This document shows, piece after piece, positions 24,734 to 34,864 of a stretch of 64,000 bases of DNA. How positions within the stretch are numbered: position 1 is the stretch's first letter; each line of letters starts with the position of its first letter. Both the position numbers and the translations under genes were made by a program. Source of the stretch: Minicystis rosea (GTDB lineage Bacteria; Myxococcota_A; Polyangia; Polyangiales; Polyangiaceae). The DNA lies in the NCBI GenBank assembly GCA_001931535.1, contig CP016211.1:10586377-10650376 (forward strand). The letters are read 5' to 3'. The notes under the pieces are model-generated. The model did not search any database and had not been told where the DNA came from. It saw nothing but the letters and a program-made list of their open reading frames with translations.

Positions 24734-26821
<2,088 letters not shown>

Positions 26822-26833
26822 GGAGGCGGAGCC

Positions 26834-28150
26834 ATGTACCGTAAGGATGTCAACGAGAGGAGCCCGATGCGTGTCTTCGAGAAATCGATGCACGGCGGGC
26901 TCGGTCGGGGGAACGTTGGCGTGGTTGCGGCCCGCCCGGGCGTCGGCAAGACGCCCCTCCTCGTGCAGATCGCCCTCGACGATCTGATGCGTGACCGCCG
27001 CGTGCTCCACATCTCGCACGAGCACGCGGTGGATCACGTGCGCGCCTACTACGACGAGATCTTCCACGATCTCTGCGCCGTCTGTCGGCTCGAAGCGCAG
27101 GACGCGGTGAAGCTCGACATCGAGCGCCACCGGCTCATCTTCTCGCTGATGTCGCAGGCCGCGGCGTCGCCGCCCTCGCTGCGCGGTGGCCGCTCGAGCC
27201 TCGCGCGCATCCAGGAGACGGTGCAGTTCGCGCGCGACATCGCGCACTTCGCGCCCGACGTCATCGTCATCGACGGCTTCGATCTGGAGCACGCCGGTGA
27301 GGACGCGGCCGTCGCCCTGGCCAAGCTCGCCAAGGATCAGAACGTCGAGCTCTGGCTCGCCGTCCAGTCCGAGGCGCCCAAGGCTCCGAGCGAGCTGCCG
27401 GCGGCGCTGGCTCGCTTCCAGAGCCAGGTGGGCGTGATCGTCTTCCTGCAGCCCGAGCGCGACGTCGTGCGCCTGCGCCTGCTCAAGGATCACGACAGCA
27501 AGGACCTCGCCGATCTGCACCTCCGCCTCGACCCGCACACCATGCGGATCATCGACGAGGACGTGCCGGCGGCGTCCGAGCGCCCGCGCGATCCGCGTCG
27601 CTTCCGCTGCATCTCCGGCGGCAACAAGGGCGCGGAGGCGGCTTTCGGCGCCTGCGCCGAGCGCTACGGCATGACGGAGGTGAACTTCACCTTCGACGGC
27701 CACACGCTCCTCGAGCGCAACCGCGGCATCGTCCAGCTCAGCGAGAACGAGCTGAAGAAGGGCGACTTCAGCCTGGTGAACGCCTCCAAGCGTCTCAACC
27801 GGGTGCTCTCGGAGATCCCGCTCGTGCGCAGCATCCTCCAGACGATCTGGCACCAGATCACCAACGCCAGCCAGGTGTTCGTGGTCGGCGTGATCCAGGA
27901 GGACAACACGGTCCGCGGCGGCACCGGCTGGGGCGCCGAGCTCGCGCGTCTCTGGAAGAAGCCGCTCTACGTCTTCGATCAGCAGAAGCGCGCGTGGTTC
28001 CGCTGGAGCGGCTCGGCCTGGGAGATCTCCGGCCAGCCCACCATCATCAGCGAGTCCTTCGCCGGCATCGGCACGCAGAACCTGACCGACGACGGCCGCG
28101 CGGCCATCAACGACCTGTTCCTGCGCAGCTTCGGCGACCCGTCGAGCTGA
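26834..28150 (+). CDS. RecA-like ATPase fused to SLOG/Rossmann-like domain
   Basis: 438 residues; ATG preceded by GAGGAGG that overlaps the fusA stop, so the two genes are probably cotranscribed. Residues about 10-240 form a RecA/DnaB/KaiC-like ATPase: Walker A ARPGVGKT (33-40), HISHEH after strand 2, Walker B VIVIDGF (143-149), and a sensor-like WLAVQSE (174-180). Residues 258-438 are a separate domain: SGGNKGAEAAFGACAERYG, ERNRGIV, SKRLNR, GGTGWGAELARLWKKPLYVFDQ, GIGT and a C-terminal helix. The Gly-rich GGxxGxE motifs recall the SLOG/lysine-decarboxylase-like Rossmann superfamily that binds nucleotides. I do not know an assigned function. Confidence 0.8.
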   Translation: MYRKDVNERSPMRVFEKSMHGGLGRGNVGVVAARPGVGKTPLLVQIALDDLMRDRRVLHISHEHAVDHVRAYYDEIFHDLCAVCRLEAQDAVKLDIERHRLIFSLMSQAAASPPSLRGGRSSLARIQETVQFARDIAHFAPDVIVIDGFDLEHAGEDAAVALAKLAKDQNVELWLAVQSEAPKAPSELPAALARFQSQVGVIVFLQPERDVVRLRLLKDHDSKDLADLHLRLDPHTMRIIDEDVPAASERPRDPRRFRCISGGNKGAEAAFGACAERYGMTEVNFTFDGHTLLERNRGIVQLSENELKKGDFSLVNASKRLNRVLSEIPLVRSILQTIWHQITNASQVFVVGVIQEDNTVRGGTGWGAELARLWKKPLYVFDQQKRAWFRWSGSAWEISGQPTIISESFAGIGTQNLTDDGRAAINDLFLRSFGDPSS

Positions 28151-28474: not shown

Positions 28475-29353
28475 ATGATGGGAACGCGGATTGCGAAGCT
28501 CCTTGTGCCGATGGCCGCCGTCTCTTCGCTGGCGCTCGTATCGTGCGCTGCGACCATGAGGGACATCACCTCGGGGAAGATTGGCTGTCCCCCGGAAGAG
28601 GTCGAGATCGTCAAAGACAACGTCGGCTTCACCACCCGCACCTGGACAGCCACCTGCCGCGGCCGGACGTTCTATTGCAGCTCGCGCACCGACACCGCCT
28701 CGACGCTCAACTTCAACAAAGGTGGGATGAGCTCCGGTTTCACGACATACACCGCTGACATCTCTTGTACGGAGGGCAAGCCCGCGCCCGGCGACGTGGC
28801 GGCTGGTGGCTACGAAGGCGTGGCCGCGGACGCGCCTCGCCCCAAGATCCAAGAGGCCCCGAAGGGCGCAGGCGGCTTCTCGTTCGGCATCGATTCGCAG
28901 GCCGCCGCAAAGCTCTGCACCGACGCCGGCCACGCTTGGGACGAGCCCGAAAAAGAGCGCTTTCGTTGCAGCGGCACGGCCGTCGACATCGGTTACAAGG
29001 CCACGAGCCGGCTCCGCTTCTGCGGTGGAAAGCTGTGCGCCGTCACCCTCAACGTCGATCTCGCCGACGAAGAGAAGGCACGATGGGTGACCCGTTATCG
29101 GTCCATTCAGGGCGCCATCGTCCACAAGTATGGTCAAACGACGGCGCGCGCCGACGAGATCGCGCCCGAATGCACGAGCCAGCTCCCCGTGTGCCTCGAT
29201 CGCGGCAATGCCTCGATGGAGTCGAAATGGCATTGGGCAGGTGGCCAATCCATCCGCCTGGCGCTCGGTCGAATCGACGGTGAGGTGGGCATCGGCATCG
29301 TCTACCGCGACGGCACGCAAGACGGGCCGAAGCCCAAGGCCGATGGCCTGTGA
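28475..29353 (+). CDS. Lipoprotein, paralogue 1 of a tandem pair
   Basis: 292 residues (ATGATG start, GAGGTG upstream). Signal peptide ends LALVSC. The N-terminal part has a small Cys-containing module (GKIGCPPEEVEI...WTATCRGRTFYCSS). The C-terminal half begins PKGAGGFSFGIDSQAAAKLC and has DAGHAWDEPEKERFRCSGTAVDIG, RLRFCGGKLCAVTLNVDLADEEKARWV and KWHWAGGQSIRLALGRID. The next gene repeats this order throughout. The family is unknown to me; paired Cys suggest disulfides, and the GKLC...WDEP...RCSGT block is the family's hallmark. Confidence 0.75.
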   Translation: MMGTRIAKLLVPMAAVSSLALVSCAATMRDITSGKIGCPPEEVEIVKDNVGFTTRTWTATCRGRTFYCSSRTDTASTLNFNKGGMSSGFTTYTADISCTEGKPAPGDVAAGGYEGVAADAPRPKIQEAPKGAGGFSFGIDSQAAAKLCTDAGHAWDEPEKERFRCSGTAVDIGYKATSRLRFCGGKLCAVTLNVDLADEEKARWVTRYRSIQGAIVHKYGQTTARADEIAPECTSQLPVCLDRGNASMESKWHWAGGQSIRLALGRIDGEVGIGIVYRDGTQDGPKPKADGL

Positions 29354-29514
29354 CGGCCGCGCCAAGCAACATCGATTGACGATCCGCGCGTCCCCCATCG
29401 CTTGACGCTGCCCGCATGGCATCGTCGCTCGGCCGCTGCCGCGAATCCTGGGATCGTCGATTGCTATGGCCCCGTCGCCGGCTCGCAATGGATGCGCGCC
29501 GCGATGGGGTGACG

Positions 29515-30447
29515 ATGGAAACCAACACGCTCCCGAGGGCGCCGCGCAGGCTCGACGGTGAAAAGGCAAGCCTCGGGCTTCCGGCCAAGCTCGCTTTGCC
29601 GATGGGCGCCGCGCTCGCGCTCACGCTGACCTCGTGCGCCGCATCGCGGATGAGGGACCTCTCCTCGGCGAAGCTCGGCTGCGCGCCGGAAGAGACCGCC
29701 ATCTCCAATGAGCACTTCGGCCTCAATGCCAGCACCTGGACTGCGACCTGCCGCGGCCGCACCTTCCATTGCACCTCGCGCGAAAGTGCCATTTCCAAGG
29801 CCAATCCGAGCCCTGCCGGCAAGAAGGCGCCCGAGGTCGAAATCACCAAGCTCACCCCTGACGTCTCCTGCGTCGAGGCGAAGCCGAAGGAGACCTCCGC
29901 GCGCGTCGAGCCGCGCGAAGCGCCAGCGCGCAAGATCGAGACGCCCGACATCGCGCCCAAGGGCGCGGGCGGCTTCTCGTTCGGCATGGATGTGCTCACC
30001 GCCGGGAAGCTCTGCATCAACGCCGGGCATCGCTGGGACGAGCCCGAGAAGGACCAATATCGATGCAGCGGCACCGTGGCCGACATCGGGCATCCGGCCG
30101 AGACGCGCCTTCGCTTCTGCGACGAGAAGCTGTGCGCCATCCACCTCGATGTTCACCTCGCGGACGAGAAGGGCTCCGAATGGGTGGCCCTCTACCAAGA
30201 CCTCTGGAGAGCCCTCGCCGTGCGATACGGCAACACCAGCAAGCGCGCCGACCAGATCCCCTCGACCTGCAAAGAACGCATGACCGAATGTCTCGAGGAC
30301 GGGACGGCGCGCCTGGACTCACGATGGCAGTGGCCGGATGGCAAATCCATTCGCCTGCTGCTCGGCCGGATCGGCAAAGAGCCGGGCATCGAAATCACCT
30401 ATCGCGACACCGCCCGTGAAGCACCGAAGGTGCCCGCGGGGCTTTGA
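29515..30447 (+). CDS. Lipoprotein, paralogue 2 of a tandem pair
   Basis: 310 residues from ATG 29515, chosen because its upstream GATGGGGTGACG matches the GATGAGGTGCG before paralogue 1; the frame is open to 29416. A long n-region precedes the hydrophobic core LALPMGAALALTLTSC. The rest mirrors paralogue 1: SAKLGCAPEETAI, TWTATCRGRTFHC, PKGAGGFSFGMDVLTAGKLC, AGHRWDEPEKDQYRCSGTVADIG, RLRFCDEKLCAIHLDVHLADEKGSEWV, RWQWPDGKSIRLLLGRIGKEPGIEITYRD. The middle linker is charged and diverged. Same orientation, 161 nt after paralogue 1. Confidence 0.75.
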   Translation: METNTLPRAPRRLDGEKASLGLPAKLALPMGAALALTLTSCAASRMRDLSSAKLGCAPEETAISNEHFGLNASTWTATCRGRTFHCTSRESAISKANPSPAGKKAPEVEITKLTPDVSCVEAKPKETSARVEPREAPARKIETPDIAPKGAGGFSFGMDVLTAGKLCINAGHRWDEPEKDQYRCSGTVADIGHPAETRLRFCDEKLCAIHLDVHLADEKGSEWVALYQDLWRALAVRYGNTSKRADQIPSTCKERMTECLEDGTARLDSRWQWPDGKSIRLLLGRIGKEPGIEITYRDTAREAPKVPAGL

Positions 30448-31614: not shown

Positions 31615-34071
31615 TCACATCTTGATCCGCTTCATCTCCGGATCGTACATCGGCCGGAGCGACGCCACCGCAGGGTACAGCTTCCCAGCGATATCCACTT
31701 CCCAGCTCCCGTTGTCCAAATACGCCTGGTCCACCGGCTCGCCGCCCTCGACCATCGCCAGGCCCACCGCGCCGCCGAGCGTGAATCCATACGACGCGGC
31801 CCGCACGTACCCCACCGGGCGGCCGTTGCGGCGCACGACCTCGGCGTGGAACATCAAGGGATTGGGGTCCTTCACCAGAACCTGCACCAATCGGCGCGTC
31901 AGCGGCCCCGCGGCCTTCTTGGCCAACACAGCATCACGGCCGATGAAGCCGCCGGGCTTTTTCAGGTCGACGGCGAAGCCGAGGCCGACCTCGAGCACGG
32001 AGTCGGTGTTGTCGATGTCGTGGCCGTAGTCGCGGTAGCCCTTTTCCATGCGGAGGCTGGCGAGGGCTTTGAGGCCGGCGTGGCGGAGGCCTACGGGCTC
32101 GCCGGCGGCGATGAGGCGGTCGTAGACGTGGGTGGCCTGCTCGGTGGGCACGTAGAGCTCGTAGCCGAGCTCGCCGAGGTAGGTGATGCGCACGCAGAGG
32201 GCGCGGGCGAAGCCGATGTCGATCTCTTTGGCGGCGCGGAAGGGGAAGGCTTCGTTCGAGAGATCGGCGGTGGTGAGGGATTGCAGGAGCTCGCGGGAGC
32301 GGGGGCCTTGCACGTTGATTTGGGCGTAGCCGGAGGTCACGTCGGTGACGAAGGCGTGCGCGTCGTCGGGGATGTGGCGGCGCATCCACGTGAGGACGTG
32401 GCGATGGGCCGTGTCGGAGGCGACGACCCAATAGCGCTCGTCGTCGAGCTTGGTGACCGTGAGATCGGCTTCGAGGGTGCCGCCCTCGTTGAGCCATTGC
32501 GTGTAGGTGATGAGGCCGGGCGCGCCGTCGACGTTGTTGGCCGAGATGTGATTGAGCACCTTCCCGGCGTCGCGGCCTTGCACCCAGAATTTCGACATGA
32601 AGGACATGTCCATGAGGATCACGCCTTCACGCGTGGCCCGGTGCTCGGCCTCCCAGTGCTTGAACCAATGTTGGCGGCCCCAGGACAGCTCGACTTCGGG
32701 CTTCTCCCCGGGCGGCGCAAACCAATCTGCGCCTTCCCAGCCGCTCACGTCCTTGAAGTAGGCGCCGCGGGCGGCCAGGCGATCGTGGAGGGCCGATTTC
32801 TTGGCGCCGCGGGCCGTCTGCATGGAGCGCGTGGGGTAGTGGCATTGGTAGACCATGCCGAGCGACTCCACGGTGCGGGTGCGGCGGTATTCGGGGTTCG
32901 ACTGGTAGGTGTGCAGTCGATCGATGTTCATCCCGGTGACGTCCATGTCGGGACGGCCGGTGATGATCCAATGGGCGAGCATGCGGCCCAGGCCGCCGCC
33001 GGTGAGGATGCCAATCGAGTTGAGGCCGGCCGCCACGAAGCAGTTCTTGAGCTCGGGCGCTTCGCCGACGACGGGGCGGAGATCGGGCGTGAAGCTCTCC
33101 GGACCGCAGAAGAACTTGCGCACGCCCACCTCGAGCGAGACGGGGACGCGGCGCATGGCGCGCTCCAGATAAGGGCCCATGCGGTCCCAATCGGGAGAGA
33201 TCTCGCCGAAGGAGAAGTCCTCCGGGACGCCGCCGATCTTCCAGGGAGCGCACTCGGGCTCGAAGAGGCCAATCATCAGGCCGCCGACCTCTTCACGGTA
33301 GTAACCGTGGGAGGCCGGATCTTCGAGGACCGGGAAAGAGCCGGACATCCCGGGGATCTTGTCGGTGATGAGATAATAGTGCTCGGCCGATTGCAGGGGG
33401 ATGTTGATACCCACTTTGTCGCCGATCTGGCGGGCCCACATGCCGGTGCAATTGACCACGTACTCGGCCTCGATGGCGCCGAACGGGGTCTCCACGCCGG
33501 TCACCACACCGCGCTTTTGCCGGATGTTGGTGACGGGGACGCCCTCGAAGATCTGCACGCCTTGAAGCTTCGCGCCCTTGGCGAGAGACATGGTGACGTC
33601 GACCGGGTTGGCGGTGCCGTCCTCCTTCACGTAGAAGCCGGCGAGGATGTCGTCGGTGCGGGCGAGGGGGAAGAGATCGCGCACCTCGGAGGGCGAGATC
33701 TCGTGCACGTCGACGCCGCAATAACGATTGAAGGTGGAGACGCGGCGATACTCTTCGAGGCGGTCGGGCTCGCTCGCCACCTCGATGAAGCCGACGGGCT
33801 TGAAGCCCGTGCCGAGGCCCGTCTCCGCTTCCAGCTTGGAATAGAGATCGCGCGTGTATTTGCGCATTTCGGTCGACGTTTCGGACGTCGATCCGAAGGT
33901 CACGATGAGGCCGGCGGCGTGCCACGTGGTGCCGGAGGTGAGCCGGTCGCGCTCGAGGAGCACCACGTCTTTCCACCCCATGTGGGCCAAGTGATAGGCC
34001 ACGGAGCAGCCAATGATTCCACCCCCGACGACCACCACACGAGCATGCTTCGGCAACACCGGATCGGACAT
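31615..34071 (-). CDS. FAD oxidoreductase-GcvT fusion, dimethylglycine/sarcosine dehydrogenase-like
   Basis: 818 residues. The N-terminal DAO-type flavin domain starts VVVVGGGIIGCSVAYHLA, with LLERDRLTSGTTWHAAG, the segment carrying the flavin-linking His in this family. A FAO_M-like bridge follows (KGYRRT..). The C-terminal half from about 430 is a GcvT/aminomethyltransferase fold (GVILMDMSFMSKFWVQGRDAGKVLNHI, YAQINVQGPRSRELLQSLT, GELGYELYVPTEQATHVYDRLI). Such fusions demethylate dimethylglycine or sarcosine and pass the one-carbon unit to tetrahydrofolate; the mitochondrial PDPR homologue has lost this. Which substrate applies cannot be decided. The gene stands alone. Confidence 0.85.
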   Translation of the reverse strand: MSDPVLPKHARVVVVGGGIIGCSVAYHLAHMGWKDVVLLERDRLTSGTTWHAAGLIVTFGSTSETSTEMRKYTRDLYSKLEAETGLGTGFKPVGFIEVASEPDRLEEYRRVSTFNRYCGVDVHEISPSEVRDLFPLARTDDILAGFYVKEDGTANPVDVTMSLAKGAKLQGVQIFEGVPVTNIRQKRGVVTGVETPFGAIEAEYVVNCTGMWARQIGDKVGINIPLQSAEHYYLITDKIPGMSGSFPVLEDPASHGYYREEVGGLMIGLFEPECAPWKIGGVPEDFSFGEISPDWDRMGPYLERAMRRVPVSLEVGVRKFFCGPESFTPDLRPVVGEAPELKNCFVAAGLNSIGILTGGGLGRMLAHWIITGRPDMDVTGMNIDRLHTYQSNPEYRRTRTVESLGMVYQCHYPTRSMQTARGAKKSALHDRLAARGAYFKDVSGWEGADWFAPPGEKPEVELSWGRQHWFKHWEAEHRATREGVILMDMSFMSKFWVQGRDAGKVLNHISANNVDGAPGLITYTQWLNEGGTLEADLTVTKLDDERYWVVASDTAHRHVLTWMRRHIPDDAHAFVTDVTSGYAQINVQGPRSRELLQSLTTADLSNEAFPFRAAKEIDIGFARALCVRITYLGELGYELYVPTEQATHVYDRLIAAGEPVGLRHAGLKALASLRMEKGYRDYGHDIDNTDSVLEVGLGFAVDLKKPGGFIGRDAVLAKKAAGPLTRRLVQVLVKDPNPLMFHAEVVRRNGRPVGYVRAASYGFTLGGAVGLAMVEGGEPVDQAYLDNGSWEVDIAGKLYPAVASLRPMYDPEMKRIKM

Positions 34072-34263: not shown

Positions 34264-34698
34264 CTACTTCGCGTGCTTGTCGAGGAGCTTCGCGAGGCGC
34301 GGGACGGCGTCCTCGACGTTCTTCTTGGCGGAGCCGCGGAGTTTTTCGTACGTGCCGCGCACGACGGAGCTCTTGGCGTTCTTGGACTTCGCGTCGGTGA
34401 CGGCGAGGAGCGCATCGGCGACACGCGACTTGTTGGAGGTGAAGTGAGCCACGGCGTCGCCCTTCTTCAGGCCTTCGTCCCAGATCGGATCGATGGCTTG
34501 GGCGAACTCGGGCAGGAGCTTCTCGACCACTTCGGTGATGAAGCCCGGCTTGATGCCCTTGACGGCCGCGTAACCCGCTTTGACCGCGAGGCCCGAGAGG
34601 CCGCCCTTATCGGCCACTTCCTCGTCGATCATCGTGCAGCAGTCTTTGATGATGACGCCCTTTTTGCTCGCGTCGTTGATGGCGCCGGAAAGGCTCAT
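34264..34698 (-). CDS. Hypothetical helical protein (DUF6918-like)
   Basis: 144 residues. Two in-frame ATGs (34704 and 34698) follow a perfect GGAGGA. The SD lies 7 nt from 34698 but only 1 nt from 34704, which decides for MSLSGAINDASKKGV. Helical throughout, with EVADKGGLSGLAVKAGYAAVKGIKPGF, VVEKLLPEFAQAIDPIWDE, VADALLAVTDAKSK, TYEKLRGSAKKNVEDAVPRLAKLLDKHAK. I believe this matches a family annotated as DUF6918, but am not certain. No signal peptide; function unknown. Confidence 0.75.
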   Translation of the reverse strand: MSLSGAINDASKKGVIIKDCCTMIDEEVADKGGLSGLAVKAGYAAVKGIKPGFITEVVEKLLPEFAQAIDPIWDEGLKKGDAVAHFTSNKSRVADALLAVTDAKSKNAKSSVVRGTYEKLRGSAKKNVEDAVPRLAKLLDKHAK

Positions 34699-34864
34699 GG
34701 TCATTCCTCCGTAGAAGGTCCGGCGCCATACCACACCTCCCGGCCCCCGCGCGAGGAACGTCATCACGGCCTCGCGACGTCGAGCGGACGGTCAGCATCG
34801 AAAGTACGGAGAACCCCGGCGAGAAATTCCTTGAAGCTCGCTCGGGAGAGGAACGGGGGACGCG

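Follow-up and report, generated by a model that had tools for sequence, protein, structure and literature searches.

The defining signature of spdEFG1 is a KDG insertion in switch I, as stated in PMC3150367. The genomic context of EF-G subfamilies was analyzed in the same paper for genes with E. coli orthologues, and the available text describes no ATPase partner. The upstream gene of the pair reported here resembles spdEFG1 and mitochondrial EF-G1 (PMC3150367, PMC4342817) in its KDG insertion, in having human mtEFG1 as its closest structure, and in its location outside the str operon; unlike the spdEFG1 described in the available text of PMC3150367, it coexists with a canonical EF-G and has an ATPase partner gene. 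As for proteins acting on EF-G, the FusB-type EF-G-binding proteins (PMC12008383), small accessory proteins with an action on EF-G at the ribosome, are taken here as a working analogue only: FusB has neither an ATPase nor a SLOG domain, and no relationship is claimed.

The partner is made of two domains, each of which has described relatives. With the KaiC/RadA/DnaB group, the RecA-like domain shares the fold, the P-loop, and a KaiC-type N-terminal lead-in (GGLGxGNVGVV), but it comes without helicase or clock domains, and the position that we equate with the catalytic Glu is variable, as is its Walker B acid; the invariant residues H59, Y73, P141, and W174 and the near-constant tie to an EF-G paralogue are its own. 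The SLOG domain shares with the cpYpsA/YAcAr branch (PF12694, PF10686; 3imk) the fold and the SGG and GGT loops, in the same order; it differs by an extra C-terminal W..W and FAGxGT block and by scores under the Pfam cut-offs. In phages, the members of PHROG 768, which are this same SLOG domain by sequence and motifs, occur alone, within a virion RNA polymerase, or within a giant crAss-like protein. We know of no test of the DprA function attributed to PHROG 768.

Results

The gene pair lies in a window, i.e., the whole stretch of 64,000 nucleotides analyzed here, taken from the 16 Mb genome of Minicystis rosea. Its features, in window coordinates, are as follows:

24734..26821, + strand: spdEFG1, 695 aa, mitochondrial EFG1-type paralogue of EF-G, which opens the pair
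26820..26826, + strand: ribosome-binding site GAGGAGG, read from the sequence, sharing two bases with the spdEFG1 stop codon
26834..28150, + strand: two-domain gene, RecA-like plus SLOG domain, 438 aa, with orthologues in 11 other genomes
26834..27568, + strand: domain of the RecA superfamily (residues 1-245; P-loop, 33-40), recognized by its fold and, in other genomes, encoded alone behind spdEFG1
27581..28147, + strand: SLOG-type domain, residues 250-438, nearest to 3imk, also a stand-alone protein of ~183 aa in many phyla and in phages

The upstream gene had been named fusA in a preliminary description of this DNA, a name that has to be abandoned. Indeed, among solved structures, it matches human mitochondrial EF-G1 best (790 bits, versus 650 bits for T. 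thermophilus EF-G), and its switch I carries the three-residue KDG insertion (VKGKDGVGA) that is found in all linked homologues and is absent from EF-G I; moreover, the canonical fusA of this genome is located elsewhere, in a str operon with rpsL, rpsG, and tuf (G000:C1:9031118-9033217). We, thus, treat the pair as spdEFG1 and its partner, an assignment based on the insertion, on the best solved match, and on the location outside the str operon, independently of the EF-G trees presented below. The insertion was ruled out as a mark of partnered spdEFG1, since unpartnered spdEFG1 of the same family carries KDG too. A third full-length EF-G is encoded in the same genome (L184 3688-5757, G000); it is nearest to canonical EF-G and has an odd switch I (GSVDRGDTEMDFGELEQQMGIT).

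The 438-residue ORF at 26834-28150 (+) is a real gene and not a chance reading frame, as its 11 orthologues, from relatives including Sorangium and Polyangium, share 46-74% identity with the window protein; the 12 orthologous sequences (window and 11 relatives) align without large gaps. Its start codon follows the spdEFG1 stop by 12 nt, with the Shine-Dalgarno sequence overlapping that stop, exactly as first described. Scanning for sigma-70 promoters and terminators gave no signal above chance. The two genes probably share one mRNA. Farther along the window, two tandem lipoprotein-like paralogues (28475-29353 and 29416-30447, both +) are 49% identical and have no Pfam match, and a DUF6918 protein is encoded at 34264-34767 (-), upstream of a dimethylglycine/sarcosine-dehydrogenase-like gene (31615-34071).

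The AlphaFold model of the RecA-like domain was compared with the PDB and matched T7 gp4, DnaB, Twinkle, RadA, and KaiC over ~210 residues (Z about 19-21), the best folds being those of T7 gp4, DnaB, and RadA; sequence matches to DnaB and RadA are weak. The RecA-like ATPase domain recognized from the sequence alone is, thus, confirmed by its fold, and so are its motifs: the Walker A at 33-40 (A33-RPGVG-KT40), with G36, G38, and K39 identical in 63/63 family members, and a Walker B-like strand at 143-149 (V143-I-V-I-D-G-F149). H59, Y73, P141, and W174 are likewise identical in all 63. The position of E63, which we take to be the RecA-family catalytic Glu, is occupied across the family by E, D, N, G, A, or other residues (E63 in the window protein), the Walker B acid may be D, E, or Q (D147 in the window protein), and the K-x-R-like finger, where it is not lost, reads K-D-H. 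As the P-loop is kept in 63/63 members, in contrast to the E63 position and the Walker B acid, we infer that the domain is likelier to be a switch binding ATP than a motor; on sequence grounds, ATP-driven motor activity is doubtful. A DnaB replicative helicase was considered and rejected, the DnaB N-terminal domain being absent and the score against family TIGR00665 being 17.7 bits for a cut-off of 385.25, with a match confined to the P-loop region. In three fused proteins (L040, L042, L050), the RecA-like part is shortened and divergent, with the P-loop and the site behind spdEFG1 kept.

The neighbors of these EF-G genes were surveyed in 377 Myxococcota genomes and in 148 genomes from the phylum to which G426, a MAG labelled as Deltaproteobacteria, belongs (hereafter the Desulfobacterota-type sample). 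The survey is confined to these two samples, although Spirochaetes and Planctomycetes also carry spdEFG1; many of the genomes are fragmented metagenome assemblies, and the domains were detected with profiles built from these very families. In Myxococcota, where the best-scoring 100 RecA-like genes were listed (weaker copies are outside the count, and one gene is at a contig end), the RecA-like gene, fused or alone, immediately follows spdEFG1, in the same orientation, in 94 of the 99 testable matches listed; the first count had been 78 out of 100, before unresolved loci were fetched. The five exceptions among these matches (L201, L205, L209, L210, and L211, in genomes G176, G309, G133, G142, and G267) come from a single genus, in which the fused gene is located away from spdEFG1; L213 is the spdEFG1 of G133, without partner. 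Adjacency without exception is ruled out by this genus. In the Desulfobacterota-type sample, the RecA-like gene is present in 39 of the 40 genomes with spdEFG1 and in none of the 108 others (Fisher p = 5e-35, relatedness ignored), and all 39 copies (39/39) come right after spdEFG1, on its strand.

Taken together, adjacency is found in 133/138 cases (the Myxococcota part among the matches listed), so that the pair is conserved well beyond the window, and, seen from the RecA-like side, the pairing is near-obligate across at least two phyla. The gap between spdEFG1 and the RecA-like gene ranges from -4 to about 220 nt, some genes overlapping by 1-4 nt. The stand-alone RecA-like gene (~230 codons) follows the same rule, as 28/28 testable fetched copies are directly downstream of spdEFG1, one more being at a contig end.

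The two domains of the partner are joined in one protein in 34 non-redundant loci and are encoded by two genes in others. Among 80 named SLOG-domain loci, a window-type EF-G is directly upstream of all the fused ones (25/25) and of none of the stand-alone ones (0/55); a fixed neighbor for the stand-alone SLOG gene was rejected as a general rule. In the Desulfobacterota-type sample, the domains co-occur beyond chance, with a SLOG gene in 18/39 genomes having the RecA-like gene versus 15/109 genomes without it (p = 8e-5); nonetheless, the RecA-like gene is found without SLOG gene in 21/39 genomes and the SLOG gene without RecA-like gene in 15/33. The two genes are, thus, not an obligate pair, as many genomes with one lack the other; many Acidobacteria-, Nitrospina-, and Ignavibacteria-labelled genomes have the SLOG domain and no RecA-like domain. 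In genome G582 (L237 2429-6077), the SLOG gene, spdEFG1, and the RecA-like gene are directly consecutive, in this order, on one strand. The ATPase-SLOG fusion behind EF-G, as initially described, therefore stands as a pairing, with the correction that it is the ATPase domain that is tied to spdEFG1, the SLOG domain being optional and mostly encoded by a separate gene.

In the EF-G tree, partnered spdEFG1 genes form one clade (support 0.68) that includes a single unpartnered member. When unpartnered genes were added in a second tree, they were scattered inside the clade, which corresponds, by eye, to about eight losses or relocations; for two of the loss cases (L222 and L224), the gene ends too near the contig edge for certainty. 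The possibility that every spdEFG1 of the clade has a partner is ruled out by these losses. The partner was probably present early and dispensable, that is to say, an accessory protein and not a subunit, since it has been lost repeatedly without loss of spdEFG1 and since the window genome also has the canonical fusA of its str operon. Likewise, the genus in which the fused gene has left spdEFG1 indicates that co-translation is not essential.

The SLOG domain was modelled by AlphaFold from 47 sequences (pLDDT 94.8, pTM 0.91). Its best solved match is 3imk (Z 13.6, rmsd 3.3, 142/158 residues), followed by DprA 4ljk (Z 6.6), all others being at or below 5.4. This supports the SLOG/Rossmann-like domain initially proposed from residue 258 onwards: strand 258-260 opens it, SGGNKGAE, GGTGWGAEL, and GIGT are conserved among 47 homologues belonging to several phyla, and structure prediction returned a SLOG-type fold and no unrelated fold with an assigned function. 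We presume that 3imk, whose title is “putative molybdenum carrier”, belongs to the cpYpsA branch of the SLOG superfamily. The Pfam matches, which agree with the fold, are weak, the best E-values being 0.01 (YAcAr) and 0.03 (cpYpsA), below the curated cut-offs of PF10686 and PF12694, and no family covering the domain was found in Pfam and NCBIfam. Foldseek gave no match below E 0.001 for the domain folded alone, 3imk surfacing in the second aligner only, and returned only KaiC/DnaB-type chains for the full-length model; the domain profile had no match among PDB sequences, and a plasmid search gave none either. Across phyla, the glycine-rich loops and charged residues are invariant (SGG..GAE, R43, R71, GGTGW..E; domain numbering). 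Outside the fusion, the domain is a widespread protein of ~183 aa, usually encoded elsewhere in the genome.

PHROG 768, annotated as “DprA-like DNA recombination-mediator protein”, is matched by 43/47 members of this SLOG family. In Klebsiella phage Pylas (Schitovirus; L235 3001-3522), the domain is embedded in the virion RNA polymerase; in crAss-like phage cr113_1 (L234 3001-3513), it is at the C-terminus of a protein of ~4300 residues; and, in a jumbo phage, it is a small gene two genes after one annotated as NAD synthetase. These copies keep the SGG and GGTGW motifs, the latter being GGTAW in the jumbo phage. Virion proteins of such kind are delivered at infection, and the presence of the domain in them fits an action on a small cellular molecule.

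Discussion

Our main reading, to which we give a probability of about 45%, is that the partner binds ATP and regulates spdEFG1 as an accessory protein, its SLOG domain serving as a nucleotide sensor or an enzyme. The partner would be made just after spdEFG1, probably from the same mRNA; its RecA/KaiC-like domain would bind ATP, probably as an oligomer, and touch spdEFG1 or the spdEFG1-ribosome complex, and the ATP state of this switch would decide whether spdEFG1 is permitted, held back, or released. The SLOG domain would read or turn over a small nucleotide-type ligand and pass the signal to the RecA-like switch, acting, in most other bacteria, from a separate gene. What would be controlled is when spdEFG1 works alongside canonical EF-G. 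Going further, the RecA/KaiC-type ATP switch and SLOG sensor may be an undescribed module shifting cells between canonical EF-G and spdEFG1 according to their energy or nucleotide state, a broader proposal that is rather unlikely. One has to keep in mind that many spdEFG1 lineages have no partner, that spdEFG1 and the fused gene have come to lie apart in one genus, and that the RecA-like and SLOG genes are often apart (21/39 and 15/33), all of which speak against the regulator. The “ATP-dependent sensor or effector” of the preliminary description is partly borne out: its domain calls and the conserved pairing hold, the fusA identity is corrected, and nothing points to a conflict system.

The SLOG domain could instead be a nucleotide-processing enzyme, making or removing a molecule that affects translation, with the RecA-like domain recruiting it to spdEFG1 or the ribosome. 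Loops and charged residues that are invariant across phyla, and largely so in phage copies too, speak for it, and a domain found in a virion RNA polymerase, in a crAss-like protein, and near an NAD synthetase gene fits a nucleotide action at infection; however, no catalytic activity is known for 3imk, and numerous genomes with the RecA-like partner are devoid of a SLOG gene. We hold this explanation to be distinctly unlikely. A motor of the DnaB or RadA kind, with the RecA-like domain running on mRNA or DNA beside the ribosome, is improbable: the best folds (T7 gp4, DnaB, and RadA; Z 19-21) and weak DnaB and RadA sequence matches would suit such a motor, but the DnaB N-terminal domain is absent, TIGR00665 scores far under its cut-off, neither the position aligned with the catalytic Glu nor the Walker B acid is constant, and the K-x-R-like finger has become K-D-H or disappeared.

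Little credit is also given to a factor dedicated to the folding or assembly of spdEFG1 itself and not acting on translating ribosomes; the strict order of spdEFG1 then partner, the near-zero gaps, and the dependence on one EF-G clade would be accounted for, but spdEFG1 stays conserved after repeated partner loss, and the SLOG fusion is left unexplained. The leaning of the earlier sequence reading was towards a role in phage defence or conflict, as an effector or sensor making use of the EF-G promoter. Thoeris is among the nucleotide-signalling defence systems that do contain SLOG domains (PMC7272460), and the domain has phage homologues; nevertheless, PADLOC gave no meaningful match (best E 0.002, to a mad8 fragment only, in the P-loop region), no effector gene lies alongside, and the pair follows one EF-G clade, with deep clade-wide inheritance beside a single paralogue, making this leaning very improbable. 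Least probable is hitch-hiking, i.e., an unrelated gene profiting from spdEFG1 expression: genes that lie side by side often have no relation to each other, and the pair is split in one genus, but adjacency in 133/138 cases (Myxococcota among the matches listed) has persisted in two phyla, through fusion and fission. Motor, folding factor, conflict effector, and hitch-hiking are, thus, all less likely than an accessory regulator of spdEFG1.

Conclusions

We found no description of the pairing of spdEFG1 with RecA-like/SLOG proteins in the open-access literature, to which the search was confined, and no partner is mentioned in the available text of the main open-access papers on spdEFG1. Each domain comes from a known superfamily; their combination with spdEFG1 appears to be new. 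Two uncatalogued and widely occurring protein families are brought to light, the RecA-like partner and the SLOG protein, the latter also present in phage virion proteins. spdEFG1 is a little-studied second EF-G, from the group in which the mitochondrial translocase originated, and an uncharacterized, near-obligate partner gives a genetic handle on why bacteria keep it beside canonical EF-G. That this partner, in the window genome, combines an ATP-binding protein with a nucleotide-binding-type domain suggests an undescribed layer of control on protein synthesis.
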